DNA from: Candidatus Fermentibacterota bacterium
GTDB taxonomy: Bacteria; JAFGKV01
Assembly (NCBI GenBank): GCA_030620115.1
Contig: JAUXFG010000056.1
Span: 1 to 22,871 of the forward strand
Direction: 5' to 3'
DNA length: 22,871 nucleotides
Shown: positions 1-19,035 of the stretch, piece after piece
How the letters are laid out: each line of letters begins with the position of its first letter
Position numbering within the stretch: position 1 is the first letter of the stretch
The notes under the pieces: model-generated
Told to the model about the DNA's origin: nothing
Database searches by the model: none
What the model saw: only the letters and a program-made list of their open reading frames with translations
Program-made: the position numbers and the translations under genes

Positions 1-791
1 ACCGCGCCGCCACCGCTTCCACTGGTGCTGCCTTCTTGCAAGCCCTGGACTCCTGCAGTCTCCGTGTATTCGCCGTCTTCCGAGCCTACCAGTTGCCCAA
101 GCGGCTTCGAAAGATCGGCAAGGCGTATCCCGCTCTCCTCATCAAGAGAGAAGAGATCATCCGACAGGGAACTTCTCCTGAACCGTACCCGCTCCAGAAC
201 GGCCAGCAAGTTCCCGTCTTTGTCACGGATCATCGCTCGTGACCATGGCGCACCTGCGTCTGATTCCTCGAATGAGACTCTCGCTTTGGTACTCCCGGTC
301 CATAGAGGTCGACTCAGATTATCCACCACCAGGAGGATCGGGTTCCCCTCCGCACCGAGCGTGAGGTTCCCTTCTCCCAATGGCCCCTCTACAATCGTCG
401 GCATACCGGCGATCACTTCTCCCGATGCCGACCAAAGCGGCACAAGGAACTCCACAAGCAGATAGGCATCAGCCATGGAAAGCCGTTCGCCGGGCGAAAA
501 GGTTGAAGGGCGCCCTCCCATGAACTGAACAGCCCCTTCCCCGGTCCAGAGCAGTTCTTCTGGGCCCGGCTCGACATCGCCCCCTGCGCGCCGATTATAG
601 ATGCGCAGGCGGTCTCCCTTGGCGAGTACTCTCGACTCCCACTGGGCACGGCCTTCAGCTGCGCCGATCCACATCTTGATATCGCATCTGGCACCGCCGC
701 CTGCGGTGAACCTACTCAACTGTTCCCCGAGTTCCGCAGCCCCGGCATTAGCGAAGACCAGGAACGCGAGTAAGAAACCAGGAAGTCTCAC
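1..791 (-). CDS. Secreted/periplasmic protein, possibly LolA-like (partial, runs off left edge)
   Basis: The reading frame is open from a GTG at 791 to the window edge (263 codons, no stop), so the C-terminus is missing. The start is supported by an AAGGAGG ribosome-binding site 8 nt upstream and by a GTGA overlap with the stop of the mscS-like gene, which implies translational coupling. Residues 1-19 form a typical signal peptide (Arg2, hydrophobic core 5-13, AGA-A cleavage site). There is no lipobox cysteine, so the product is probably soluble periplasmic. The mature part looks beta-rich and contains a DKDGNLLAVLE stretch near residue 190 followed by a VRF segment; this loosely recalls LolA/LolB-fold lipoprotein-sorting proteins, but that is a weak impression. 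The visible end (about 253-263) is Gly/Ser-rich. That it is a gene is well supported; its function is not. Confidence 0.75.
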   Translation of the reverse strand, partial: MRLPGFLLAFLVFANAGAAELGEQLSRFTAGGGARCDIKMWIGAAEGRAQWESRVLAKGDRLRIYNRRAGGDVEPGPEELLWTGEGAVQFMGGRPSTFSPGERLSMADAYLLVEFLVPLWSASGEVIAGMPTIVEGPLGEGNLTLGAEGNPILLVVDNLSRPLWTGSTKARVSFEESDAGAPWSRAMIRDKDGNLLAVLERVRFRRSSLSDDLFSLDEESGIRLADLSKPLGQLVGSEDGEYTETAGVQGLQEGSTSGSGGGA

Positions 792-2392
792 TCGGATTGC
801 CTCCTTCTTGGTGACTCGTTCGTCGTGTCGCCCACGTTACCCCTGGAGCCCTTCCGCGTCAAGAAACCCATCACTCTCTGAATTGAGGCGCGGGTATGAC
901 TCCTCTCTTGTTTTGGGGGAAGCTCATGAGGCTTCACACCTGAGGCGGCCAGTTTGATCCGATTTTCTTCGACACGCTCTTGTACAAGGTCCGTGAGCTT
1001 ATCAAGAATCGATTCATTCGCCTCTATCACGTGTTTGAATGCATCACGATATATTACCGCGACAGAGCAGTCCTCTGTAGCTCTGACCGTCGCATTGCGC
1101 TTCTCGCCCTGCAAAAGACTCATCTCTCCGAAATGATCATGCCTTGAGAGGGATCCAACTTGCACATCATTGCCACTGTCATCTTTGATGCAGATCGAAA
1201 CCATTCCTTTCAGAATGATGAAGAAGCTGTCACCGCTTTCGCCTTGCTGAACAAGGTTCTCTCCCGCGGCAAATCTCTGCACTTCCACTTCCTCCATCAA
1301 CCTTCCCATGTCCAGGTCATCCAGCGGTTCCAAGACCGGCACATGCTGAAGCGCTACTAGCAATTCGCGTCGATCTCGCTCCTCCTGCTCTGCCTCGGTC
1401 TTCCGCGAAATGGTCCTGAGCATGACATTCTTGATAGGAAATGGGATCTCGATGCCATACCGGCGGAAGTAGTACCAGACCTTGGCCCGGATCGCATCTT
1501 GGATGAATTCCTTCTTTGCATAGTCCCGGATCCAAAACCGAACGTCGTATTCGATGGAGAAGTCATCATACGACAGAAGTAATACCTCAGGCGCAGGATT
1601 CATGGTAATACCTTGCCTCGCGGCGTCGCTCACCACCTGAAGCAGTACGCTCTTGACCTTATTGGGTGGCGCTTTGTAGCTCACGCCAATATAAAAATGC
1701 TCCCGATGAAGCCTCTTTGGCTTCGTGAAATTCACGAGCTTGCCATTGGCAATGGCACTGTTCGGAATGATCATGTAGTCGTTATTCCTCGTCCTGATTC
1801 GTGTTGCCCTCCAGCTCATCTGATCCACAATCCCTTCTTCATCCTCCGCATTGACCCAATCCCCCACCTCGAAGGGCTTTTCCACAAAAATGGCGATCCC
1901 GGCGAGGATATTTCCCAGAGTATCCTTGAGCGCGAAACCCAATACTGCTGAAAGAATCGCACTTGTGGTAAGCAGTGCCCCGAGTTCAACATCAAACCCC
2001 GTCTTCAGCACAAACATGATGACGATAATCATGAGAAAAGCCCGGATGATGTCCCGGAAAATCCCAGGAATCTGTTCCTGCTTCTCCCGTGATATAAAAT
2101 GGCGGATCACCAGTGGTTCCAGGAGCATGACTGCCAAGGTCAGAATCCATAAGGCGAGGAATCCGTTGAGAGCCTGTGCGACTGACGGGCGGGTTATCGC
2201 ATGATCGGGTCCCAATAGATCCGGCGAGGAGAGTACACTGACCAGCATTCTCACCAAGAGCGTAAGGATGGCCAGGCGCGTCACCACGGCGCCTTTTCGG
2301 ATCTTGAAGAATCTTATGGCCCCCTCGTGGAGCAAGGTGAGCCCCAATGCCAGCGCCATGGAAACCACAAGTGAGCCAAGCCAATCAGGCAT
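788..2392 (-). CDS. MscS-family channel with C-terminal cyclic-nucleotide-binding domain (bCNG type)
   Basis: The product is a 534-residue inner-membrane channel. Predicted membrane helices lie at about 5-25, 38-55, 76-98 and 112-130, followed by the Gly/Ala-rich pore helix of MscS (about 140-170, with SAVLGFALKDTLGN) and the cytoplasmic beta domain (VGDWV, then IIPNS near 209-213). After residue 350 comes a Crp/CNG-type cyclic-nucleotide-binding domain (about 355-470). Its phosphate-binding cassette begins FGEMSLL at 421 and keeps the ribose-contacting Glu423 and phosphate-contacting Arg432. This matches the known bCNG subfamily, in which cAMP rather than membrane tension is thought to gate the pore. 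The ATG is preceded by GGAGG at 6 nt and overlaps the cyclase gene by 8 nt. The tail (about 480-534) is basic and polar. Ligand and ion selectivity cannot be read from sequence. Confidence 0.93.
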   Translation of the reverse strand: MPDWLGSLVVSMALALGLTLLHEGAIRFFKIRKGAVVTRLAILTLLVRMLVSVLSSPDLLGPDHAITRPSVAQALNGFLALWILTLAVMLLEPLVIRHFISREKQEQIPGIFRDIIRAFLMIIVIMFVLKTGFDVELGALLTTSAILSAVLGFALKDTLGNILAGIAIFVEKPFEVGDWVNAEDEEGIVDQMSWRATRIRTRNNDYMIIPNSAIANGKLVNFTKPKRLHREHFYIGVSYKAPPNKVKSVLLQVVSDAARQGITMNPAPEVLLLSYDDFSIEYDVRFWIRDYAKKEFIQDAIRAKVWYYFRRYGIEIPFPIKNVMLRTISRKTEAEQEERDRRELLVALQHVPVLEPLDDLDMGRLMEEVEVQRFAAGENLVQQGESGDSFFIILKGMVSICIKDDSGNDVQVGSLSRHDHFGEMSLLQGEKRNATVRATEDCSVAVIYRDAFKHVIEANESILDKLTDLVQERVEENRIKLAASGVKPHELPPKQERSHTRASIQRVMGFLTRKGSRGNVGDTTNESPRRRQSE

Positions 2393-4355
2393 CGCCTGCC
2401 TCCTGTCCTCCTATGGGTTCAAATAGCTCGACCTCTCGAGTCTTGCCCCGGATGCTGTGCGCGCCGTGAGACCGAAACCGAATCTCATCACCGCACTGCT
2501 CCGCCGTGGCTGCGGTCACAAGAATACATGTGCCAATCTGCTTATTCAACGCCTGTACCCTGCTGGCTGTATTGACCGTGTCACCAATGGCGGTGTACTC
2601 CATCCGCTCCTTGCTTCCGATATTACCCACCGTGGCAGGGCCTGTATTGACACCAATGCCAATACGCAGGCTCGGTAATCCACGCACCTGCCACCCCGCG
2701 TTCAGCTCTTCGAGCCGTGCACGCATGCCCAGCCCGGTGCGCACGGCTCGAGCAGCCTGATCCGCTTGGTGACCGGGAGCGCCATAAAAAACCATCATGC
2801 CATCGCCGAGGAATTTATCCAAAGTTCCTCCATGCGCGAACACTTCTTCAACCATGGCGCCAAGGAATTCATTCAATATACCCACGACCTCTCCGGGGCG
2901 TCGGTGCTCCGACAGGGTCGTGAAGCCTCTTATATCACAGAAAAGCACGGTGATCTCCCGCCGCTCTCCACCGAGCGTGATCTGATCCGATTCCTTGAGC
3001 AGCTCTTCGACCACCTGCTTGCTCACATATCGAGAGAATGTTGCCCGGTAACGTCGTTTCTCCCTGCCCTCCGCGAAATACAGTGCAAGTATCTGGCCAG
3101 CCTCTGCCAACACAAAGGCGAGCCACGGAAAAGAGAGGTCCATCCAGTTCCCTGACCGAAGGAGCGAGACATCAAGCGCCCCATAGCCCATGGCGAGAAT
3201 GGAACCAAAGGGAAGTGCAATCCATGTGGGCCACCGATGCAGCGCCAAGCCCCCCAACAGTACGAGCCCGGCAGCCGCGAGCCATGACCATCTCCTATCC
3301 AGCCGTTTCAGGAAGCCGCCAACTTCGATATTCTCATAGGCTGCTGCGTGAAGTTCGACGCCGGGAACAGTACCGAGAGGCGACGAGACAAGATCAAACA
3401 GACCGGAGGCCGTCACGGCAATAATCACCACCTTGTTCTCAAACATCTCAGGTATGACCACAGGAAGATCGCGCTTCCGCCAATCGGGAGCTACTCCCTC
3501 GCGAAGGGCCAGACCAGCATGGAGCACAGATGAGAAGGACAGATATGTGCGCCGGAAACGGCTGAACCGGAGCCATGCGGTCCCATCCTCCTCAATAGGA
3601 ATGGACCGGACGGCGCCATTGACTCCGATCGTGCGCGCTACGCATACGATCTCCTCGGGGTATCGCTCCTTGACCCAGAGCCACATGGCCAAAGGTAGTG
3701 AGGGAAGGGTGACGCCTTCAGCGGAGGCAAGCATGGAAACCCGCCGTTTTGCTCCGTCAACATCTCTGGGGGCATTGAGCTGGCCGAGGCAATCGCATGC
3801 GTCACGGAGCCCGTCGAATGGAACGATGAGCCGATCGAATGGCGACTGCGGGTCACAGGAAACGCCGAATCGCTCGAGGAGATCGCTCCTGGCCTCCTCT
3901 GAGGTTGGTTTCCCCAGCTTCGTGGCGGCAGCCGCCGCCTGGCAGGTGTTCCCGACTTCCAGAACCGCGTTGACGAACTGGCGATCATCCTCGGGTTCCG
4001 CACTGCTGAGTGGGAAATAGATGTCAAAGCCCACCATTCGAGCATCTGCATAGGCAAGGTACTCCAGCACAGGAGCGTAGATATCCCTCGGCCACGGCCA
4101 TTTGCCCAATGCATAGGAATCCGCGTCAAGGGAAAGATCGTCCACCGCCACCACCACCACTCGATTCTCTTCCCGTACGGTCAAGGGCGCCAGGCGTTGC
4201 GCCGTATCCATGAGGTTGAGCTCAATCCTCTCTATCTTCTCGGACCCCCGCAGAAACGCAGCCACCGCGATTGCCCCAAGGGAAATCAGGGTGAACCGAA
4301 GAAGCCTCGCGTTCAGCCGTTTCTTGAGGGTAGGATCTCGCTGTCCCTGCGCCAC
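2385..4355 (-). CDS. CHASE2-domain class III adenylate cyclase
   Basis: A 656-residue membrane cyclase predicted to make cAMP from ATP. The layout is an N-terminal membrane helix (about 20-36), an extracytoplasmic CHASE2 sensor (about 40-335, with VAVDDLSL and the GFDIYFP motif), two or three membrane helices (about 355-425), then a cytoplasmic class III catalytic domain (about 460-645). The catalytic residues are all present: metal ligands Asp474 (FCDIRGFT) and Asp518, adenine-selecting Lys514 (LDKFLGDG) and Asp592, and transition-state Asn595 and Arg599 (GDTVNTASR). The Lys/Asp pair predicts ATP rather than GTP as substrate. The GTG start at 4355 has GGGGAG 7 nt upstream, which gives a 43-nt overlap with the end of nadB. 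The gene overlaps the following cNMP-binding channel by 8 nt, so that channel is the obvious cAMP target. The signal sensed by CHASE2 is unknown. Confidence 0.93.
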   Translation of the reverse strand: MAQGQRDPTLKKRLNARLLRFTLISLGAIAVAAFLRGSEKIERIELNLMDTAQRLAPLTVREENRVVVVAVDDLSLDADSYALGKWPWPRDIYAPVLEYLAYADARMVGFDIYFPLSSAEPEDDRQFVNAVLEVGNTCQAAAAATKLGKPTSEEARSDLLERFGVSCDPQSPFDRLIVPFDGLRDACDCLGQLNAPRDVDGAKRRVSMLASAEGVTLPSLPLAMWLWVKERYPEEIVCVARTIGVNGAVRSIPIEEDGTAWLRFSRFRRTYLSFSSVLHAGLALREGVAPDWRKRDLPVVIPEMFENKVVIIAVTASGLFDLVSSPLGTVPGVELHAAAYENIEVGGFLKRLDRRWSWLAAAGLVLLGGLALHRWPTWIALPFGSILAMGYGALDVSLLRSGNWMDLSFPWLAFVLAEAGQILALYFAEGREKRRYRATFSRYVSKQVVEELLKESDQITLGGERREITVLFCDIRGFTTLSEHRRPGEVVGILNEFLGAMVEEVFAHGGTLDKFLGDGMMVFYGAPGHQADQAARAVRTGLGMRARLEELNAGWQVRGLPSLRIGIGVNTGPATVGNIGSKERMEYTAIGDTVNTASRVQALNKQIGTCILVTAATAEQCGDEIRFRSHGAHSIRGKTREVELFEPIGGQEAGDA

Positions 4356-5926
4356 CGCTTGTCTCCCCTGCCGGGATGATCGAGGTTATAGTGGAGCCCT
4401 CTGGATTCCTTGCGCCACGCGGCCGATCGTGTGATGAGCTCCGCCACATCGGCCATGTTGCGCAGTTCCACGGTGGCTCGGGTTTCGCCGTGACTCTCAA
4501 TCAGAAGCCGCACCCTGCGCTTCAGAGCGGCCAGTTCGTGCAACGCACCGGCAAGACCCGTGTCTGATCGGACTATGCCCGCCCCCGCCCACATACATCT
4601 TCGGATTTGACCTCTCAATTCAACCGCCAGTTCGTCATCAGAGCCAGTCAACGGCGGCACGTGATGTGCGGTCTCGGGAGTCTCTTCCGTGGGGGAGATC
4701 TGCGCCAATCGCTTGTTCACACTCTTGGCAACCCGCTCGGCAAAAACCACCGCTTCGAGAAGGGAGTTGCTCGCCAGTCGGTTGGCACCATGGAGCCCTG
4801 TATGCGCCACTTCACCGCATGCGAATAGCCCTTCGACGCTGGTGGCTCCGTCCAGGTCCGACCTGAGCCCCCCACACATATAGTGGGCCGCAGGGACCAC
4901 GGGAATCGGCTCTACGGCAAAATCGATCCCCACATTGAGACACTTCTCGTTGATCTGCGGGAATCTCCGTCGCAGATAGGCGCTGTCTAAAATCGTGGCA
5001 TCAAGAAGCACGTAGGGGATTTGATGAGCTCTCATCTCGCTATCGATGGCCCGCGCCACGATGTCCCTCGGAGCAAGCTCACCACGAGAATCATAGTTCT
5101 TCATGAAGGCCCGGCCGTCAGGAAGGACCAGCTTGGCGCCTTCCCCTCTCACGGCCTCCGAGATCAAGAAGCTTTCCCCGCAAGGACTGTAGAAAGTGGT
5201 GGGGTGGAATTGCACGAATTCAAGGTTGCATACCGCGACACCGGCCCGGAATCCCAACGAAATGCCGTCACCGGTGGCGATCTCAGGGTTACTAGTGAAT
5301 TGATATACGTGCCCGGCGCCGCCGGTGGCCAAGACGGCTGTAGTAGAGTCTACGGTCCGCCGCATGGCCCGCTCCCCGCGCTCGTCAAGGAGCACCACCC
5401 CCCGCACCCGACCACATCCCCCATATTCCTGGTCCACTTGAATGTCGGATACCAGGATGTTCTCCAGGAGAATGACATTCCGCCTCTCTTTGATCACGGA
5501 CAGCAAGGTCATTTCGATCTCCTTGCCGGTCCGATCCAGCGCATGAACAATCCGTCTCCTCGAATGCCCACCTTCCCGTCCGAGATCCCATATGCCGTCT
5601 GGTGACCGTGAGAAATCCACGCCCCAACGATACAAGCGCGCAACTGCGGCCGGGCCGTTCTCAACCACCTCCTTCACCACGTCCACATGGCAGAGCCCTG
5701 CGCCACCCCGCAACGTATCTACCAAGTGTCGTTCGGGTGCATCATCGTTCCCCACTGCGGCAGCTATGCCGCCTTGGGCGAAATTCGTATTGGAATCGGC
5801 CTTCCCTTTCTTGGTCAACACAAGCACGTGCCACTTTGGTTCGATCATCAGGGCCGTCACGAGACCGGCCATTCCGGATCCAACCACAATCACGTCCGCC
5901 TGCCTGGGGACCATCTGCCTAAACAA
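4313..5926 (-). CDS. nadB: L-aspartate oxidase
   Basis: A 537-residue FAD flavoprotein (E. coli NadB is 540) that oxidises L-aspartate to iminoaspartate, the first step of de novo NAD synthesis. Family landmarks are the FAD-binding GSGMAGL near residue 16, NFAQGGIA near 48, the EGGHSRRRIVHALD segment near 118, VQFHPT, RGEGA, the APRDIVARAI active-site loop, AAHYMCGG and the C-terminal FAD motif (GLHGANRLASNS). The start appears to be TTG at 5926: AAAGGAG lies 6 nt upstream, inside the lpxK end (8-nt overlap). The next ATG (5914) is too far from that site. nadA and nadC are not adjacent, so the quinolinate synthase partner must lie elsewhere. The gene sits between lpxK and the cyclase simply as part of the run; no functional tie is apparent. 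Confidence 0.97.
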   Translation of the reverse strand: MFRQMVPRQADVIVVGSGMAGLVTALMIEPKWHVLVLTKKGKADSNTNFAQGGIAAAVGNDDAPERHLVDTLRGGAGLCHVDVVKEVVENGPAAVARLYRWGVDFSRSPDGIWDLGREGGHSRRRIVHALDRTGKEIEMTLLSVIKERRNVILLENILVSDIQVDQEYGGCGRVRGVVLLDERGERAMRRTVDSTTAVLATGGAGHVYQFTSNPEIATGDGISLGFRAGVAVCNLEFVQFHPTTFYSPCGESFLISEAVRGEGAKLVLPDGRAFMKNYDSRGELAPRDIVARAIDSEMRAHQIPYVLLDATILDSAYLRRRFPQINEKCLNVGIDFAVEPIPVVPAAHYMCGGLRSDLDGATSVEGLFACGEVAHTGLHGANRLASNSLLEAVVFAERVAKSVNKRLAQISPTEETPETAHHVPPLTGSDDELAVELRGQIRRCMWAGAGIVRSDTGLAGALHELAALKRRVRLLIESHGETRATVELRNMADVAELITRSAAWRKESRGLHYNLDHPGRGDKRWRRDSEILPSRNG

Positions 5927-10700: not shown

Positions 10701-12017
10701 CTATCTCTCCGCTACGGTGCACATGAGTTCCGCTTCAGCCACGAGCTGACCATCCACATAACCTTTGGCAGCCATCTTGGATGTGCTGGGTCTGAAACGG
10801 ATCATTTCGACTTCGAATCTGATCTGATCTCCCGGGCGAACCGGCCTGCGAAACCGTGCTCTATCAATCCCAGTGAAGTAAACGAACTTCTCTTGAGGAT
10901 TGTTCATCGCGCTCAGAAGGAGGAGGCCACCGACCTGGGCCATGGCTTCGACGATGAGGACTCCAGGCATCACCGGATGCCCCGGAAAGTGGCCGGAGAA
11001 GTAAGGTTCATTGATCGTCACGTTCTTGATGCCAACGATTCGTTCTCCACCCTCGATCTCCAGAATCCGATCGACCAACAAGAAAGGATATCGATGCGGC
11101 ATGATTCGTTGGATGTCTTCAATGTCAACAGGCGGTTTTGGGAAGACCATATCGCCCTTTGCACCAATGGAACCGTCATTATCTTCCAGCCTCCGCCGAA
11201 GCATACGCACGAGACGAACATTGGCCTCATGACCCGACTTTGCGGCGATGACATGGGCGCGGAGAGGAACCCCTATGAGGAAGAAGTCACCAATAAGATC
11301 CACGATCTTGTGACGGACGAATTCGTTGCTGAACCTCAATTCGCCGTTGTTCAGGATACCCTCGTCACCCACGACAATCGCATTGTCGAGGCTGCCGCCC
11401 TTGATGAGGCCCGCACGCTGAAGCATCTCCACTTCGTGCAAGAACGTAAACGTCCTCGCGGGGGCAATCTCCTTCGCAAATATGGCATCGGTGATCACGA
11501 AGGACGCATATTGTGTTCCGAGCATGGGATGATTGTATTCGAGGAGAAAACTGACTTTGAAGCCATCATAGGGCAAGAGAACGATGTTCACTCCATCTTT
11601 CTCATAGCTCATGGTCTCTTTGATCTCGAGATACTTCTTTTCGTCGCCCTGTCCCACCAATTCCGCTTTCTGGAGTGCCTTCACGAACGGCAATGCACTA
11701 CCGTCAGCCACTGGGGCTTCATTCCCATCTACCTTGACGATCAGATTGTCGATGCCGAGACCGGCGACAGCTGCCAGTACATGCTCAACGGTCATGATGC
11801 GCGCACCATTGGCACCGAGAGTAGTCCCTCTGGCAGTATCGACCACGTGGGCGATGTCCGCATGGATAGTGGGAGAACTCGGCAAGTCGGATCGGACGAA
11901 AACCACACCGGTATTCTCTGGAGCCGGCTCGAAGGTGATTGTGTTAATTTCGCCTGTATGCAATCCAACACCGGTGAATGAAGCCGTCCCACGGATGGTT
12001 TTTTGCCTATCCGGCAT
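10701..12017 (-). CDS. lpxC-fabZ: Bifunctional LpxC-FabZ: UDP-3-O-acyl-GlcNAc deacetylase / 3-hydroxyacyl-ACP dehydratase
   Basis: A fusion of the committed lipid A deacetylase with the fatty-acid dehydratase, known from Bacteroidetes/Chlorobi-type genomes. The start is taken at ATG 12017 because AAGGAG lies 7 nt upstream; an in-frame ATG 18 nt earlier (12035) has no such site. From 12017 the protein has 438 residues. The LpxC part (about 1-290) has zinc ligands His79 (TVEHVLA), His236 and Asp240 ([10 protein letters not shown]), plus His263 (SGHEANVR). The FabZ part (about 297-438) has [13 protein letters not shown], His343 ([12 protein letters not shown]) and Glu357 (EAMAQ), the dehydratase pair. 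The fusion ties lipid A commitment to supply of 3-hydroxyacyl-ACP. A 108-bp gap with repeats precedes it, so it may have its own promoter. Confidence 0.97.
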
Positions 12018-12024
12018 AGGCGAA

Positions 12025-12030
12025 CTCCTT
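12025..12030 (-). promoter_or_regulatory. Ribosome-binding site that fixes the lpxC-fabZ start
   Basis: AAGGAG on the minus strand lies 7 nt before ATG 12017 and inside the reading frame that would begin at ATG 12035. It favours the shorter protein, which also puts the first zinc ligand at position 79, as in E. coli LpxC. Confidence 0.7.
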
Positions 12031-12042
12031 GTCATACAACGA

Positions 12043-12715: not shown

Positions 12716-14959
12716 CTACATGAACGCCCCAAACTGAAAATGCGGTTTCCAGCCTGGATCTTCTTTGTCAAAGCCGTAGCCATAATCCAAACCAATGATA
12801 CCCATAATGCCCGTGTTGATGCGGATCCCTATGCCTGCACCCCGCTTCATGCTCTCGAAGTTGAGATCACCAAGACTTCTCCATGAATTCCCCGCATCAA
12901 AGAAGCCAAGGAGATCGATCTGTTCGGGAACCAGAGGCGCCCTGAGTTCCGCGTTGACTACTGCCATGGCCCTCCCGCCCACCGTGTATCCGGAGCGTTC
13001 CTCGGGACCAATCGAATAATCCTCATATCCTCTGATGGCGCCATCACCGCTGGTTCCCCCAAGACGGAATCGCTCATACACGGGAACATCGTCCCTATCA
13101 GGATGGCCGGACACCGATCCCGCTTTCAGACGAACATTGAGCACAAGGTGCTTGAAAAGTGGGCTGAACCAGCTTGTTTGAACCTCGTATTTATTGTACG
13201 ACACATCGCCCCCGAGGATTCGTCCCGCTACCTCCAAGTTCATGGAACTGCGTGAGCCGTTCCTCGGATCAAGGAAGTTGTCCCGACTATCACGGACCAG
13301 CCGATAGATGGTGCGGCTGGTGGTTCTCCAGCCATCCGGCAACTCCGGCCCATCGTAGTCGCTGTCAGGGGTAACCTTCACGTCATGCAAGCTGTAGGCA
13401 AAATAGGTGCTCACATAGTCCAACCAAGGCAGGGGCCTTCCAAGGTGTATGCCGCCTCCTCTCCTCTTCTCTTCATAGTCGGCATAGTAGATCTTGCGAG
13501 ACGTATTGTAGACGTCAAAGCCTGCTCTCGTTGGCGTGTCCAGAAGCCACGGTTCCGTGAACCCGAATTCGATATTCTTGCTATAGCGACCAAACTCCCA
13601 ACGCAAGTTCGCCTGCCAGGCATTCCCCATGACATTAGGGTGGGAAAGCTGAATGAAGCCCATGAGCTTGCTTTGACTCGAGTAGGTCACCCCGAAATTG
13701 AACTGCCCGGATGACTTCTCCTTGACTTCGACATGGAAGTCAACCTCTCCCTCAGTGGTCGGATTCTTGAAATCGACACTCACATCCTCAAAAAAACCCA
13801 GGTTATAGATTTCCCTGTGACTCCGGACCAAGGCGCTTCGTCTGAATCTCTCGCCGGGGAAGATAACCAACTCCCTCCGGATAACCTTCTCTTTGGTTCT
13901 CGTATTCCCCGAGATATTGATGAGTCGAACCACCGCAGGAGGCCCCTGTCGAACCCTTAGTATATAACTTATAAGGCTATCGTTCCTCTGCTCCTCAGGT
14001 ATGATACGGGCCCAGAGATGGCCATCTTCCTGGAATAGCTCATAAATGCTCCGAATACCGTCCTCAAACTTCTCATAATCAAATGGTTCGCCTGGCGCTA
14101 CTCGGACACGCGACGTAAGAAAATCGGTAGAAAGAGAGAGGGTATCCTCAACATCAACAGTGATCTCTCCGAGATAGTAGCGCTGCCCCTCATCCACCTC
14201 CACCACCACCGCCACGCTCCTGCCATCGGGCAAATATTCAAGGTGATGATCGGTAATCACCGCATCCACATATCCCTGCTTCCTGTAGAACTTCTCGATC
14301 CTGTCGAGGCTCTCATCCATTTTCTCTCTCTCGTATTTCCCGCTTCTCAAGAACCCCTTGGGCTTGAGCTTCATCTTCCCTGCAATGGTGGACGGCTCGA
14401 AGTGCTTCGCCCCCAGAATTCGGATTTCTCTAACCACGACCTTCGGCCCCTCGTCGATCTGGTACTTCACCTGCAATCGGCCATCCGATTCCTCCACCAC
14501 CGGATCAACGGCGGCCTTGAGATAGCCTTGTTCCCGGTAGGCATCACGAATCACTGATCGATAACCTTCGAGCCGTGCGCGACTGACTCGTTGCCCCTTC
14601 ACCAGTGGGACCTTCTCTTCGAGATCCTCGGTGCTGAGGTGTTTGTTCCCGAGAAACTCCACGGAAGCCAGGGGTGGCCTCTCCTTGACGGCAAGGGTCA
14701 GGATTCGACCAGCGGGTTCCAAACGTTCGTAGATCTGCACATCATCAATAAGACCTGCACGATACAAACGCCGAGTGGCGTCGGCGAGGTCCACCCCGGA
14801 ATGGACCATCCCGATTCTCAGCCCGGACGTCCTGAGCACAAAAAGAGAGTCCAGGGTCGACGTACCCTCAACTCTGATCTCCACCGTCTTCGGGGTCTGG
14901 GCGACAGCCCCAACGGCGAGACACCAGAAAACGGCCAGAGGGAAAAAGGACCGAATCAA
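12716..14959 (-). CDS. bamA: Outer-membrane protein assembly factor BamA
   Basis: A 747-residue Omp85 protein that folds beta-barrel proteins into the outer membrane. It has a signal peptide (about 1-20, AVGAVA-Q), then about five POTRA repeats (about 25-420; repeated features such as YREQGYL and [14 protein letters not shown]), then a 16-strand barrel (about 430-747) starting at [12 protein letters not shown]. The barrel includes the conserved loop-6 signature in the form IRGYED near 655 and a C-terminal aromatic strand ending HFQFGAFM; the extra methionine after the terminal phenylalanine is slightly unusual. The likely start is TTG at 14959, overlapping the clpC stop as TTGA. Without it no signal peptide would be complete. 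No strong ribosome-binding site is visible, so translation probably depends on coupling to clpC. Confidence 0.95.
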
Positions 14960-17430
14960 CTCGTCTGCACCGACATCATCTCCGCGCTGGCACGGAATAC
15001 CTTGAACCCATCCTGATCAACGTCAACCATCACAACCGCCCCCTCATGGATCATTCCATCCAGGAGACCCTCGGCCAGCCTGTCTTCTATTTCCTTCTGA
15101 ATGACTCGCTTCAGCGGACGGGCGCCAAGCTTTCGATCGAACCCCTTGGTTGCCAGCCGTTCCCTGGCAGCGTCGGTGGCTCGAACGGTGATCGCCTTGT
15201 CTTCTAGCCTTCCCTGAAGCTCCTTGAGCTGAATATCGACGATCTTTGCCATGTCATCCATATCAAGAGACCGAAAGACAATCACTTCATCAAGCCTATT
15301 CATGAACTCCGGGTTAAAGAGACGTTTCACACTGCTCATGACCTTCGCCTTCATCCTTCTGTAGCTGTTTTGCCCGTCGGCACTCCCGAATCCAAGATTC
15401 TCGACCCTGTCGATCTCCCTGGCACCGATATTCGAAGTCATAACGATAACCGTGTTCTTGAAATCTACGATGCGCCCAAAACTATCGGTAAGCCGCCCAT
15501 CATCGAGGACTTGGAGCAGCAGATTGAATACGTCGGGATGGGCCTTTTCTATCTCGTCGAGCAACACCACCGAATATGGCTTCCTTCGTACCTTCTCCGT
15601 CAGCTGCCCACCCTCTTCATACCCTACGTATCCCGGAGGGGCGCCGATCAATCGTGAGACTGCAAACTTCTCCATGTACTCAGACATATCGACTCTGGTA
15701 AGCGCATCCTCATCGTCGAAAAGGAACTGCGCCAAAACCCTGGCCAGTTCGGTCTTCCCCACGCCAGTAGGTCCCAGGAAGAGAAACGATCCGATGGGCC
15801 TCCGGGGATCCTTCACCCCAGCTCTTCCGCGCCTCACTGCATTTGAAACCGCACGCACCGCCTCGTTCTGGCCAACGATCCTCTCGTGCAGACGTTCCTC
15901 CATGGCCAGCAGACGTTCTGATTCTTCCAGCTCCATCCGGGCTACCGGGATACCCGTCCACCGCGATACGATGTATGCCACGGCTTCGCGATCAACCTTC
16001 ACCTTCTGGCTTCCAACCGCCTTCGTCCACGCCTGCTCCAGCATGCTGAGATGATCACGAAGCTTTTTCTCGCGATCTCGCAAGCCGGCAGCCCGCTCGA
16101 ACTGTTGCTCGCGGATGGCACGTTCTTTCTCCAAAGTCACGGCCTCGATCTCAGCCTCCAGCGCCGCAATCTCGGGATTCACCTTCTGACCTCGCAACCG
16201 AGCCCTTGCACCGGCCTCATCGATGACGTCAATCGCTTTGTCGGGGAGGAATCTATCAGAAATGTAGCGATCAGCCAGTTCCGCCGCCGCCTCCAGAGCC
16301 TCATCGGTGATCACCGCCCTGTGGTGATCCTCGTATTTTGATCGCAGGCCACGAAGTATCTGAAGTGTCTGTTCCTTGGTGGGAGCCTCCACCAGTATCT
16401 TTTGGAAGCGCCTTTCCAAGGCGCCGTCCTTTTCGATATATTTCCGGTGCTCGTTCAGCGTGGTGGCGCCGATACATTGCAACTCCCCACGAGAAAGCGC
16501 CGGCTTCAGCATGTTGGAGGCATCGATGGCGCCCTCCGCACCACCGGCTCCGACAATGGTGTGCAACTCATCGACAAAAAGAACGATGTTGCCGTCTTGG
16601 CGTATCTCGCTCATCAAGGCTTTCAGCCGTTCTTCGAACTGACCACGATATTTCGTTCCCGCGACAACTGCCGCGAGGTCCAAGGCGAGAACACGTTTCT
16701 TGCGAAGCAGATCGGGAACTCGCCTCGAGACGATACTCTGTGCCAACCCCTCCACAATGGCCGTCTTGCCGACGCCAGGTTCTCCCACCAGAACCGGATT
16801 GTTCTTCTTGCGCCTGCAGAGAATCTCTGCCACCCTATTGATTTCCTTCTTTCTGCCCACGATGGGGTCAAGTTTGCCACCTCTCGCAAGACCTGTCAGA
16901 TCTCTGCAGAAATGATCCAAGGCAGGCGTTCGGCTTTTCTTGGCTGAACCATGAGAACCCGATGATGCAGCCTTTGGAACTGTCGCCGCCGACGCAAGCA
17001 ACCGGAGCGCCATGTGTTTCACGCGTGGATATGTGGCGCCCATGCCGATGAGCGCATGGGCAGCCACGCCCTCACCTTCCCGAATGAGCCCGAGGAGCAA
17101 ATGCTCGGTCCCCACGTAGTTATGCTCCATGGCGCTCGCCTCCTCCGTAGCGAGTTCCAGCACGCGGCGTGCACGGGATGTGAGCGGCACATCGCCGGCC
17201 GTCACTGTGCTGGATGCCCGGCGCACCAGTCGATCGACGTTATGGCGTAGATCGTCCAAATTGACGTTCAACTCCGCCAAAATGGCAGTCGCCACCCCAC
17301 CGCCCTCCCGAATGAGCCCAAGAAGCAAGTGTTCGGTTCCAATGAAATCATGGTTCAGGCGAACTGCTTCTTCCCGCGCGAGCAGAAGCACCTTTCGAAC
17401 ACGATCGGTAAAATGGTCGAATCTCATCAT
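14956..17430 (-). CDS. clpC: ClpC-type AAA+ unfoldase
   Basis: An 824-residue HSP100 ATPase that unfolds substrates, normally for the ClpP protease. It has two N-terminal Clp repeats (about 5-145), AAA domain 1 with Walker A GEPGVGKT (216-223) and Walker B LFVDE, a short coiled-coil middle domain with a UVR-like [14 protein letters not shown] (444-457), and AAA domain 2 with Walker A GPTGVGKT (553-560) and Walker B LLDE. An LGF tripeptide (679-681) sits at the ClpP-docking loop position, so it should partner with ClpP encoded elsewhere. In the McsAB system the N-domain reads phosphoarginine marks; the gene follows mcsB by 19 nt, which supports that role. The start is one of two adjacent ATGs (17430 or 17427). 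Confidence 0.96.
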
Positions 17431-17449
17431 CCTAATGGCCCCGTATTAT

Positions 17450-18505
17450 CTACGCGGGGAGCAGTCTACTCCTCACGTACTCTGAACGCCGGTAATCTCT
17501 CTCTTCGGCCGACAAATCACCACCAACCCGCTTCTGAATATGTGCGGGCCGGCAGAGCTCGATCATCTCATTCAGAAACGAGATGTCGACTCCCTCCACC
17601 ATGCCAAGGTCAACACCAAACCGGACGGCCGAACACAACGCCGCGCATTCCTTGCTCCCCAGCAGCCTCGAGCTCCGCAAAAGGCCAAAAGCTCGCCAGA
17701 CCTTGTCTTCCACCTCGAGCCTTGCGTCCTGAGCAAGGACTTCTTGCGCTTGTACTTCGTATTGCAAGAGCTGTGCCACAATCCGATCCATCATCTCGAC
17801 TATTTCTTCTTCAGATGGGCCCAAAGTAGTCTGGTTGGAGACCTGGAACAGGTTTCCAACCACGCCGCTTCCTTCTCCTCGAAAGCCACGGACCACCAAA
17901 CCTATCTGAGAGATCCCATTGATTACCTTGCTGATCTCTCGCGTGAGAACCAGACCTGGTAGATGAACGAGGACCGAGGCCCTCATGCCAGTGCCCACAT
18001 TCGTGGGACACGCGGTCAGATAGCCAAGCCGCTCATCATAGGCCGGCTCGTAGAAACCCTCGAGTTCCCTGTCAACCTCCCGAGCCAGCCTCAACGCTTC
18101 CCAAAGATCTAACCCCGATGCGAAGCCACAGATCCGAAGATGGTCTTCTTTATTGATCTGGACCGACATCAATTCATCATCCCGGAAGATCGCCGCAGCC
18201 TCCGAGGGCTCACCCACAGAATTGCGCTCAATGATGTGGCGCTCATTCAGTACTTCCCGATCAAGCTCGCTCAGTGCTCCCAATTCCACAAACTCCGCAG
18301 GTTTCAGCTCATCCAGAGCGGGAAGTGCACGATGAATGGTATCAGCCACGTGGCGAAGCTCATCGGCGTTGGCATGCTGAGGAAAATGGAGTGTTTGCAC
18401 GTTCCTGGCAAGCCGGACACGTGACGAGAGAACCTTATCCGCTTGGGGCCCTGTTGCCGAAAGCCAGCCGCTAGGTTTTAGGGAAATGCTGTCCAGCATA
18501 CTCAT
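17450..18505 (-). CDS. mcsB: Protein-arginine kinase McsB
   Basis: A 351-residue phosphagen-kinase-fold enzyme that phosphorylates arginine residues in proteins, marking them for ClpC. Visible motifs are SSRVRLARN (27-35), the catalytic loop NKEDHLRI with Glu120, CPTNVGTGMRAS with Cys166, and the nucleotide-binding RGFRGEGSG (206-214) and SNQTTLG. The C-terminal ERDYRRSEYVR (335-345) corresponds to the phosphoarginine-sensing RDxxRA element of Bacillus McsB (Arg336, Asp337), so allosteric feedback is probably kept. Length matches the family (about 350-360). The ATG overlaps the mcsA stop as ATGA, which suggests stoichiometric production with its activator. Confidence 0.96.
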   Translation of the reverse strand: MSMLDSISLKPSGWLSATGPQADKVLSSRVRLARNVQTLHFPQHANADELRHVADTIHRALPALDELKPAEFVELGALSELDREVLNERHIIERNSVGEPSEAAAIFRDDELMSVQINKEDHLRICGFASGLDLWEALRLAREVDRELEGFYEPAYDERLGYLTACPTNVGTGMRASVLVHLPGLVLTREISKVINGISQIGLVVRGFRGEGSGVVGNLFQVSNQTTLGPSEEEIVEMMDRIVAQLLQYEVQAQEVLAQDARLEVEDKVWRAFGLLRSSRLLGSKECAALCSAVRFGVDLGMVEGVDISFLNEMIELCRPAHIQKRVGGDLSAEERDYRRSEYVRSRLLPA

Positions 18506-19035
18506 GGGGACCCCTGTTCCGGTATGATGCCGCCTTCCTTCAGCTCCTTTATGCGATCGCGGATCCTGGCCGCCTCCTCGTAGGCTTCTTCGGCGACTAC
18601 ATCCGCCAAATGCGTTCGCAGAGCGCGCAACTCGAGTTGCACCGACCCTTCGGCGCTATGCTCCCCGGGGCCGCGCCCTCCATGTCGAAGGCTCCCATGA
18701 AGGCGACGAATCAATAAGCCGACCTCACGTTGGAAGCTGGTGTAGCACTGGGAGCAGCCCAGTTGTCCCGTTTCTTTGAACTCTCTGTATCCCAGACCGC
18801 AGGATGGACAGACCAAAACACCTCCTGTAGCATGGTGATCCCGCGTCTTGTGATCCTCTATGCCTGCCACCAGCTTGGATACCGTGAACCCAGCCTGTGA
18901 GGGCTGCTCTCCCGCGCCCATCTCCCGGGCGCATTGTGGGCACAAGTGGTACTCATGCACCTCACCGTCGGAAACATCCTTGAAAGTGATTTCCGCCGGC
19001 TTCTTGCCGCACCTATCACATGTGCCGCTCGTCAT
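18502..19035 (-). CDS. mcsA: McsA, zinc-finger activator of McsB
   Basis: A 177-residue protein with four CxxC pairs (Cys6/9, 32/35, 76/79, 94/97) forming two zinc-binding modules, then a C-terminal UVR motif (about 140-165, AYEEAARIRDRIKEL). This is the architecture of McsA, which binds and activates the arginine kinase McsB and links to ClpC. It overlaps mcsB by 4 nt and the preceding ABC ATPase gene by 20 nt. In Firmicutes the operon begins with the repressor ctsR; no ctsR-like gene is present here. Confidence 0.93.
   Translation of the reverse strand: MTSGTCDRCGKKPAEITFKDVSDGEVHEYHLCPQCAREMGAGEQPSQAGFTVSKLVAGIEDHKTRDHHATGGVLVCPSCGLGYREFKETGQLGCSQCYTSFQREVGLLIRRLHGSLRHGGRGPGEHSAEGSVQLELRALRTHLADVVAEEAYEEAARIRDRIKELKEGGIIPEQGSP

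Follow-up and report, generated by a model that had tools for sequence, protein, structure and literature searches.

The locus examined here raises the question of whether a receptor-type cyclase and a membrane channel that are encoded by overlapping genes are also coupled in function, namely by the cyclic nucleotide that the one would produce and the other would bind. The window, i.e. the whole stretch of 22,871 nucleotides that was analyzed, is one entire contig (C55) of a 4.1-Mb metagenome-assembled genome (MAG) that is 98% complete. Judged from genomics only, we consider it likely, though well short of certain, that the cyclase-channel pair constitutes a cAMP-to-channel signaling module.

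The overlapping genes and their products

3..791, minus strand: ORF3, downstream of the pair and cut by the contig end; conserved, with a signal-peptide-like N-terminal hydrophobic stretch
788..2392, minus strand: channel of the MscS family, 534 aa, bCNG-like, with a cNMP-binding domain at the C-terminus (Pfam, AF2, Foldseek)
1016..1279, minus strand: cNMP-binding domain (cNBD) of the channel, aa 372-459, with E423 and R432 in a GEMSLL...R motif (Pfam PF00027, E 2e-24)
1445..1924, minus strand: MscS beta domain and third domain of the channel, aa 157-316 (Pfam PF00924, PF21082)
2385..2392, minus strand: 8-nt overlap of cyclase and channel genes, ATGCCTGA, the identical 8 nt being found in G001 and G002
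2399..2404, minus strand: AGGAGG as ribosome-binding site, six bases upstream of the start codon (ATG) of the channel gene (sequence)
2385..4355, minus strand: predicted receptor-type adenylyl cyclase of class III with a CHASE2 domain, 656 aa, translated from a GTG start (Pfam, residues, PDB matches)
2436..2960, minus strand: class III catalytic domain of the cyclase, aa 466-640, with D474/K514/D518/T588/N595/R599 (Pfam Guanylate_cyc, 3e-21)
3249..4265, minus strand: CHASE2 sensor domain of the cyclase, aa 31-369, presumed extracytoplasmic (Pfam PF05226, E 3e-44)
4313..5926, minus strand: nadB (L-aspartate oxidase), upstream neighbor, which at its 3' end shares 43 nt with the start of the cyclase gene

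On the minus strand, the genes lpxB, a DUF374 gene, lpxK and nadB lead in this order into cyclase and channel. The overlap and the strong ribosome-binding site of which the original prediction had spoken are both present, with exactly 8 nt being shared. The same-family genomes G001 and G002 encode cyclases and channels with 55-58% protein identity to those of the window, and both keep the order cyclase-channel-ORF3 with the overlap; in G001, the full order lpxK-nadB-cyclase-channel-ORF3 is confirmed, and nadB thus adjoins the cyclase there as well. An analysis of dN/dS was dropped, as synonymous sites are saturated. While nadB is outside the mechanism proposed below, ORF3 is a possible third member of the module in the window's family only: it follows the pair in 3 of 3 family members with 48-68% identity (48% between the window and G001), no known domain was found in it, and its AF2 model, which is based on a three-row alignment, has a pLDDT of 50. 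A scan for promoters and terminators gave matches that were no more frequent than expected by chance.

In the cyclase, the CHASE2 domain precedes the catalytic domain, as in CHASE2 receptor cyclases (Pfam), and the two metal-binding Asp as well as the transition-state Asn and Arg of class III enzymes are all present (D474, D518, N595, R599). The original prediction had listed D474, K514, D518, D592, N595 and R599 as the catalytic set, and all six residues were indeed found, but the residue that specifies the base is Thr588, seven positions before N595, and not Asp592. The latter is common though not invariant, with several relatives having Arg, Lys, Asn or Ser instead. The base-selecting pair is therefore Lys514/Thr588, which is of the purine-selecting type of adenylyl cyclases (Lys plus Asp/Thr) and which is conserved in 11 of 11 triad cyclases; among all CHASE2 cyclases compared, position 514 is Lys and position 588 is Thr, rarely Ser. 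The best matches among solved structures are 6fht, a bacteriophytochrome-cyclase fusion, 2w01, and CyaB (3r5g), which in the PDB alignment carries the same Lys/Thr residues at the base site. The product of the cyclase is thus probably cAMP, as far as residues can tell. In one relative (G060; L255, 1778-2640, plus strand), the CHASE2 domain is spread over two open frames, as one match with an internal TAG, and as relatives are intact, this split is an assembly error or decay.

The channel has the architecture of bCNG channels, in which an MscS pore and beta domain are fused to a C-terminal cNMP-binding domain. Pfam matches cover MS_channel_2nd (157-224, 8e-21), MS_channel_3rd (233-316, 3e-11) and cNMP_binding (372-459, 2e-24), the AF2 model (mean pLDDT 81.7) is confident for the MscS core and the cNBD, and Foldseek searches of the PDB with this model returned matches to MscS and to the cNBD of PKA RI-alpha. 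That the nucleotide pocket is intact, as had been predicted, could be confirmed: the Glu and Arg that contact ribose and phosphate in cNBDs correspond to E423 and R432, both of which are invariant in alignment A5, and the GEMSLL...R motif is intact in every paired channel checked. The adenine contacts of CRP (Thr127/Ser128) map by sequence register to approximately Asn477/Arg478 of the window channel, and with Asn/Arg at these positions the identity of the ligand is not readable from the sequence. In another MscS-cNBD relative (L015/L078), Ala replaces the ribose-contacting Glu (GATSLL), and some members of this group may therefore have lost nucleotide binding.

Recurrence of the pair and an additional hydrolase

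The survey for adjacency that the original prediction had proposed comprised 80 distant MscS-cNBD loci as well as searches of Desulfobacterota, Planctomycetota, Fermentibacterota and Verrucomicrobiota, these phylum names being those of the loci used as search centers. In total, 172 distinct loci at 95% identity were obtained, which correspond to 86 clusters at 60% identity, and in 13 of these 86 clusters a CHASE2 or cyclase gene lies within 1.5 kb of the channel gene (upstream on the same strand in 8, downstream on the same strand in 1, on the opposite strand in 4). As many loci end at contig ends, these linkage counts are lower bounds. Pairs occur in the class of L098 (L250-L253, L255) and in Desulfobacterota (L243, L244), and the downstream arrangement is seen in L246 and L247. 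Most MscS-cNBD genes have no neighboring cyclase gene; in Fermentibacterota, the channel was found in 36 of 42 genomes, and none of the 30 loci examined had a cyclase adjoining it. A second MscS-cNBD channel of G002 (L045/L023, contig C257), about 34% identical to the window channel, likewise has no adjoining cyclase.

Could the adjacency be fortuitous? For a control, 48 genomes of two other phyla were picked for carrying the channel, not for adjacency, and these were found to contain 74 CHASE2 genes and 140 MscS domains. Of the 50 cNBD-bearing MscS genes, 8 have a CHASE2 gene at a distance of up to 2.5 kb, as opposed to none of the 92 plain ones (Fisher p 1.6e-4), and within 5 kb the figures are 10 of 50 and 0 of 92 (p 1.5e-5), p-values that are optimistic because related genomes are not independent, although the 0/92 contrast lies inside the same genomes. 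With 8 neighbors observed and 0.16 expected by chance, a chance adjacency is very unlikely. The conserved adjacency that had been anticipated is thus borne out, within the family by the retained overlap and in the two other phyla by the difference between the two types of MscS genes.

The linkage is scattered over both the channel and the cyclase trees, and a single origin by simple descent can be rejected. To explain the linkage on the channel tree, 10 changes are required, 9 of which are forced by starred branches (quick method), and on the cyclase tree the paired cyclases fall into four separate clades; such change counts do not separate gain from loss. The Planctomycetota cyclase of L245 groups with those of the Desulfobacterota loci L243 and L244 (support 100), but the corresponding channels are only about 25% identical, which suggests an exchange of partners.

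In other lineages, a third gene is present. Ten loci of Verrucomicrobiota (L305-L313, L316) as well as L245 have the order cyclase, metallo-beta-lactamase (MBL)-fold hydrolase, channel on one strand, and the intervening gene carries a TH(Y/T/V)H(L/I)DH motif. Scans of three intervening hydrolases gave matches to Lactamase_B_2 as well as weak ones to RNase Z and to a cyclic-nucleotide-degrading phosphodiesterase model, with the Verrucomicrobiota hydrolases reaching only 31-42 bits against NCBIfam NF041851, whose cut-off is 400. For proteins near the pairs L243 and L244, the match to PF02112 (“cAMP phosphodiesterases class-II”) exceeds the gathering score. Rv1339, an atypical class-II phosphodiesterase, and PF02112 phosphodiesterases are MBL-fold hydrolases of the HxHxDH type like those in the clusters, and Rv1339 demonstrates that RNase Z-related MBL-fold proteins can be cAMP phosphodiesterases (PMC9293780). 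The difference is that here the hydrolases are found in the clusters of relatives and not in that of the window, which contains no hydrolase gene. The presence of MBL-fold and PF02112 genes in these clusters provides independent evidence for a cyclic mononucleotide as the currency of the module.

The channel of L200/L245 seemed to have a long extension at its N-terminus, but this was an ORF artefact, as the hydrolase gene occupies that gap. MBL-fold hydrolase genes divergent from the MscS-cNBD gene were seen in L073, L074 and L085 (one Bdellovibrio, one deltaproteobacterial MAG). Locus L265 (381-3436, plus strand) encodes a CHASE2 cyclase followed after 69 nt by a PF02112 gene that exceeds the gathering score, with no channel, and is a predicted bare writer-eraser pair.

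Proposed mechanism and its alternatives

Domains, residues, the overlap, and the recurrent and specific linkage are established here, and the coupling of cyclase and channel that was originally predicted has gained good support from the family-conserved overlap, the specific linkage and the putative phosphodiesterases in the same clusters. In the mechanism that we propose, the CHASE2 domain would sense an extracytoplasmic or membrane cue and thereby alter the activity of the cytoplasmic class III cyclase, which would form cAMP beside the membrane. This cAMP would bind to the C-terminal cNBD of the MscS-type channel, the product of the next, translationally coupled gene, and change its gating, with opening being more likely than closing. 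The output of the module would be a flux of ions or solutes rather than transcription. In several other lineages, the clustered MBL-fold hydrolase, which in some cases matches the class-II cAMP phosphodiesterase family, presumably terminates the signal. We thus infer cAMP as product and ligand, the gating, and the role of the hydrolase.

As to the input, an envelope or osmotic stress is a conjecture, since that proposal builds on neighbor genes common only to the window's family. The lpxK/nadB context is limited to that family and was not seen at the other paired loci, which adjoin SH3, FecR or transglutaminase genes; these neighbors hint at cell-envelope sensing in general.

The cAMP need not be private to the pair. 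In the genome of the window, seven PF00211 matches in six proteins indicate several other class III cyclases, and besides the channel there are two further cNBD proteins among three PF00027 proteins in total in this 98%-complete MAG, so the term “self-contained” of the original prediction was too strong. One of these (L029, 3011-4051, minus strand) is a cNBD-GGDEF fusion, possibly a link from cAMP to c-di-GMP, and the other (L028) is a contig-end fragment with a cNBD and a coiled coil. The predicted absence of a transcription factor from the circuit fits this genome: HTH_Crp gave nothing above cut-off in the 98%-complete MAG, in which one of the three PF00027 proteins is cut by a contig end, and a CRP-type output was rejected on this ground. 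If cAMP is made, the candidate readers are the channel and a diguanylate-cyclase-like protein, with no recognized CRP.

What alternatives exist for a channel that is gated by cAMP? The nucleotide could be a mere modulator, with the channel being gated by tension and the cNBD-bound cAMP raising or lowering the tension threshold, or closing the channel. The pore region has a full MscS fold, bCNG channels are reported to show mechanosensitive behavior, with one member being tension-gated (Malcolm et al. 2012, as cited in PMC4560390), and the same genomics that backs direct gating backs this modulation as well; as no sequence feature separates it from direct ligand gating, we give it an appreciable but minor chance. 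Rather improbable, in our opinion, is that the two genes merely share a regulon, in which case both products would respond to envelope stress and be co-transcribed, cAMP would not act on the channel, and the cNBD would bind another ligand or be structural. The envelope genes that adjoin the pair in the window family (lpxK and the upstream Lpx genes) and the SH3, FecR or transglutaminase genes beside other pairs would agree with this, but co-regulation would not readily account for CHASE2 proximity being confined to cNBD-bearing channels (8/50 versus 0/92 for plain MscS in the same genomes), for putative cAMP phosphodiesterases in the clusters, or for a cNBD motif that is conserved in all paired channels checked.

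Very hard to reconcile with the data is a Pycsar-like anti-phage system, in which the cyclase would form a cyclic pyrimidine upon infection and the channel would be an effector that kills the cell. Pycsar systems also consist of a class III cyclase (PycC) that is encoded together with a cNBD effector, PycTIR or PycTM (PMC11224242), and the PADLOC models of PycC and PycTIR recognize the cyclase and cNBD domains that are common to both. However, the base site of the window cyclase is of the purine type Lys/Thr, whereas the triads reported for PycC are Tyr/Asp/Arg and Phe/Arg/Gln (PMC11224242), a CHASE2 receptor domain is present, there is neither a TIR nor a PycTM effector, and the chromosomal synteny with lpxK and nadB is conserved. 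We therefore rejected a defense function on the grounds of residues, effector and context: the effector is an MscS channel, and PADLOC effector matches are restricted to its cNBD.

Relation to known systems

The direct cAMP-to-channel module that we favor combines known parts. bCNG channels (Caldwell et al. 2010; Malcolm et al. 2012; as far as covered in PMC4560390 and PMC6261518) have an MscS pore and a C-terminal cNMP-binding domain, as is the case here, but in that coverage it is the channel that is treated, whereas here a CHASE2 cyclase is co-encoded and a putative phosphodiesterase is added in other lineages. CyaD1, CyaD2 and CyaK of Sinorhizobium meliloti are CHASE2 receptor cyclases, like that of the window, which answer an extracellular signal with cAMP, and their output is the CRP-family regulator Clr (PMC13001267), whereas the likely reader in the window is the channel. 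The association is real and recurrent, and the combination was not found in the literature searched, in which no paper linked MscS with a cyclase (the original bCNG papers being outside the scope of that search).

bCNG-type MscS channels are widespread, and no native pathway that sets their ligand was found in the literature searched; the receptor cyclases to which they are linked here, joined in some phyla by a putative phosphodiesterase, would place them in a circuit. The known outputs of bacterial cAMP are mostly transcriptional, and the cyclase-channel circuit, if true, adds a fast ion flux to them. Natural cyclase-channel pairs could moreover be used for biophysics. A more far-reaching idea, which we find slightly easier to doubt than to accept, is that CHASE2 cyclase, class-II-like cAMP phosphodiesterase and cAMP-gated MscS may form a widespread, transcription-independent writer/eraser/reader module that follows the logic of animal sensory transduction with unrelated channel parts and that was assembled or kept several times.

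Elsewhere in the window (14956-19035, minus strand), a gene for an AAA+ protein of the ClpB/ClpA type, for which ClpB is the best NCBIfam match, is arranged in a row with genes for an McsB protein-arginine kinase and a UVR-motif McsA-like protein. Such McsAB-Clp sets are known best from Gram-positives, and the bacterium that has the set here also carries Lpx and BamA genes. At 10701-12035 (minus strand), LpxC and a FabA-like (FabZ-type) domain are encoded in a single ORF, which thus represents an LpxC-FabZ fusion.
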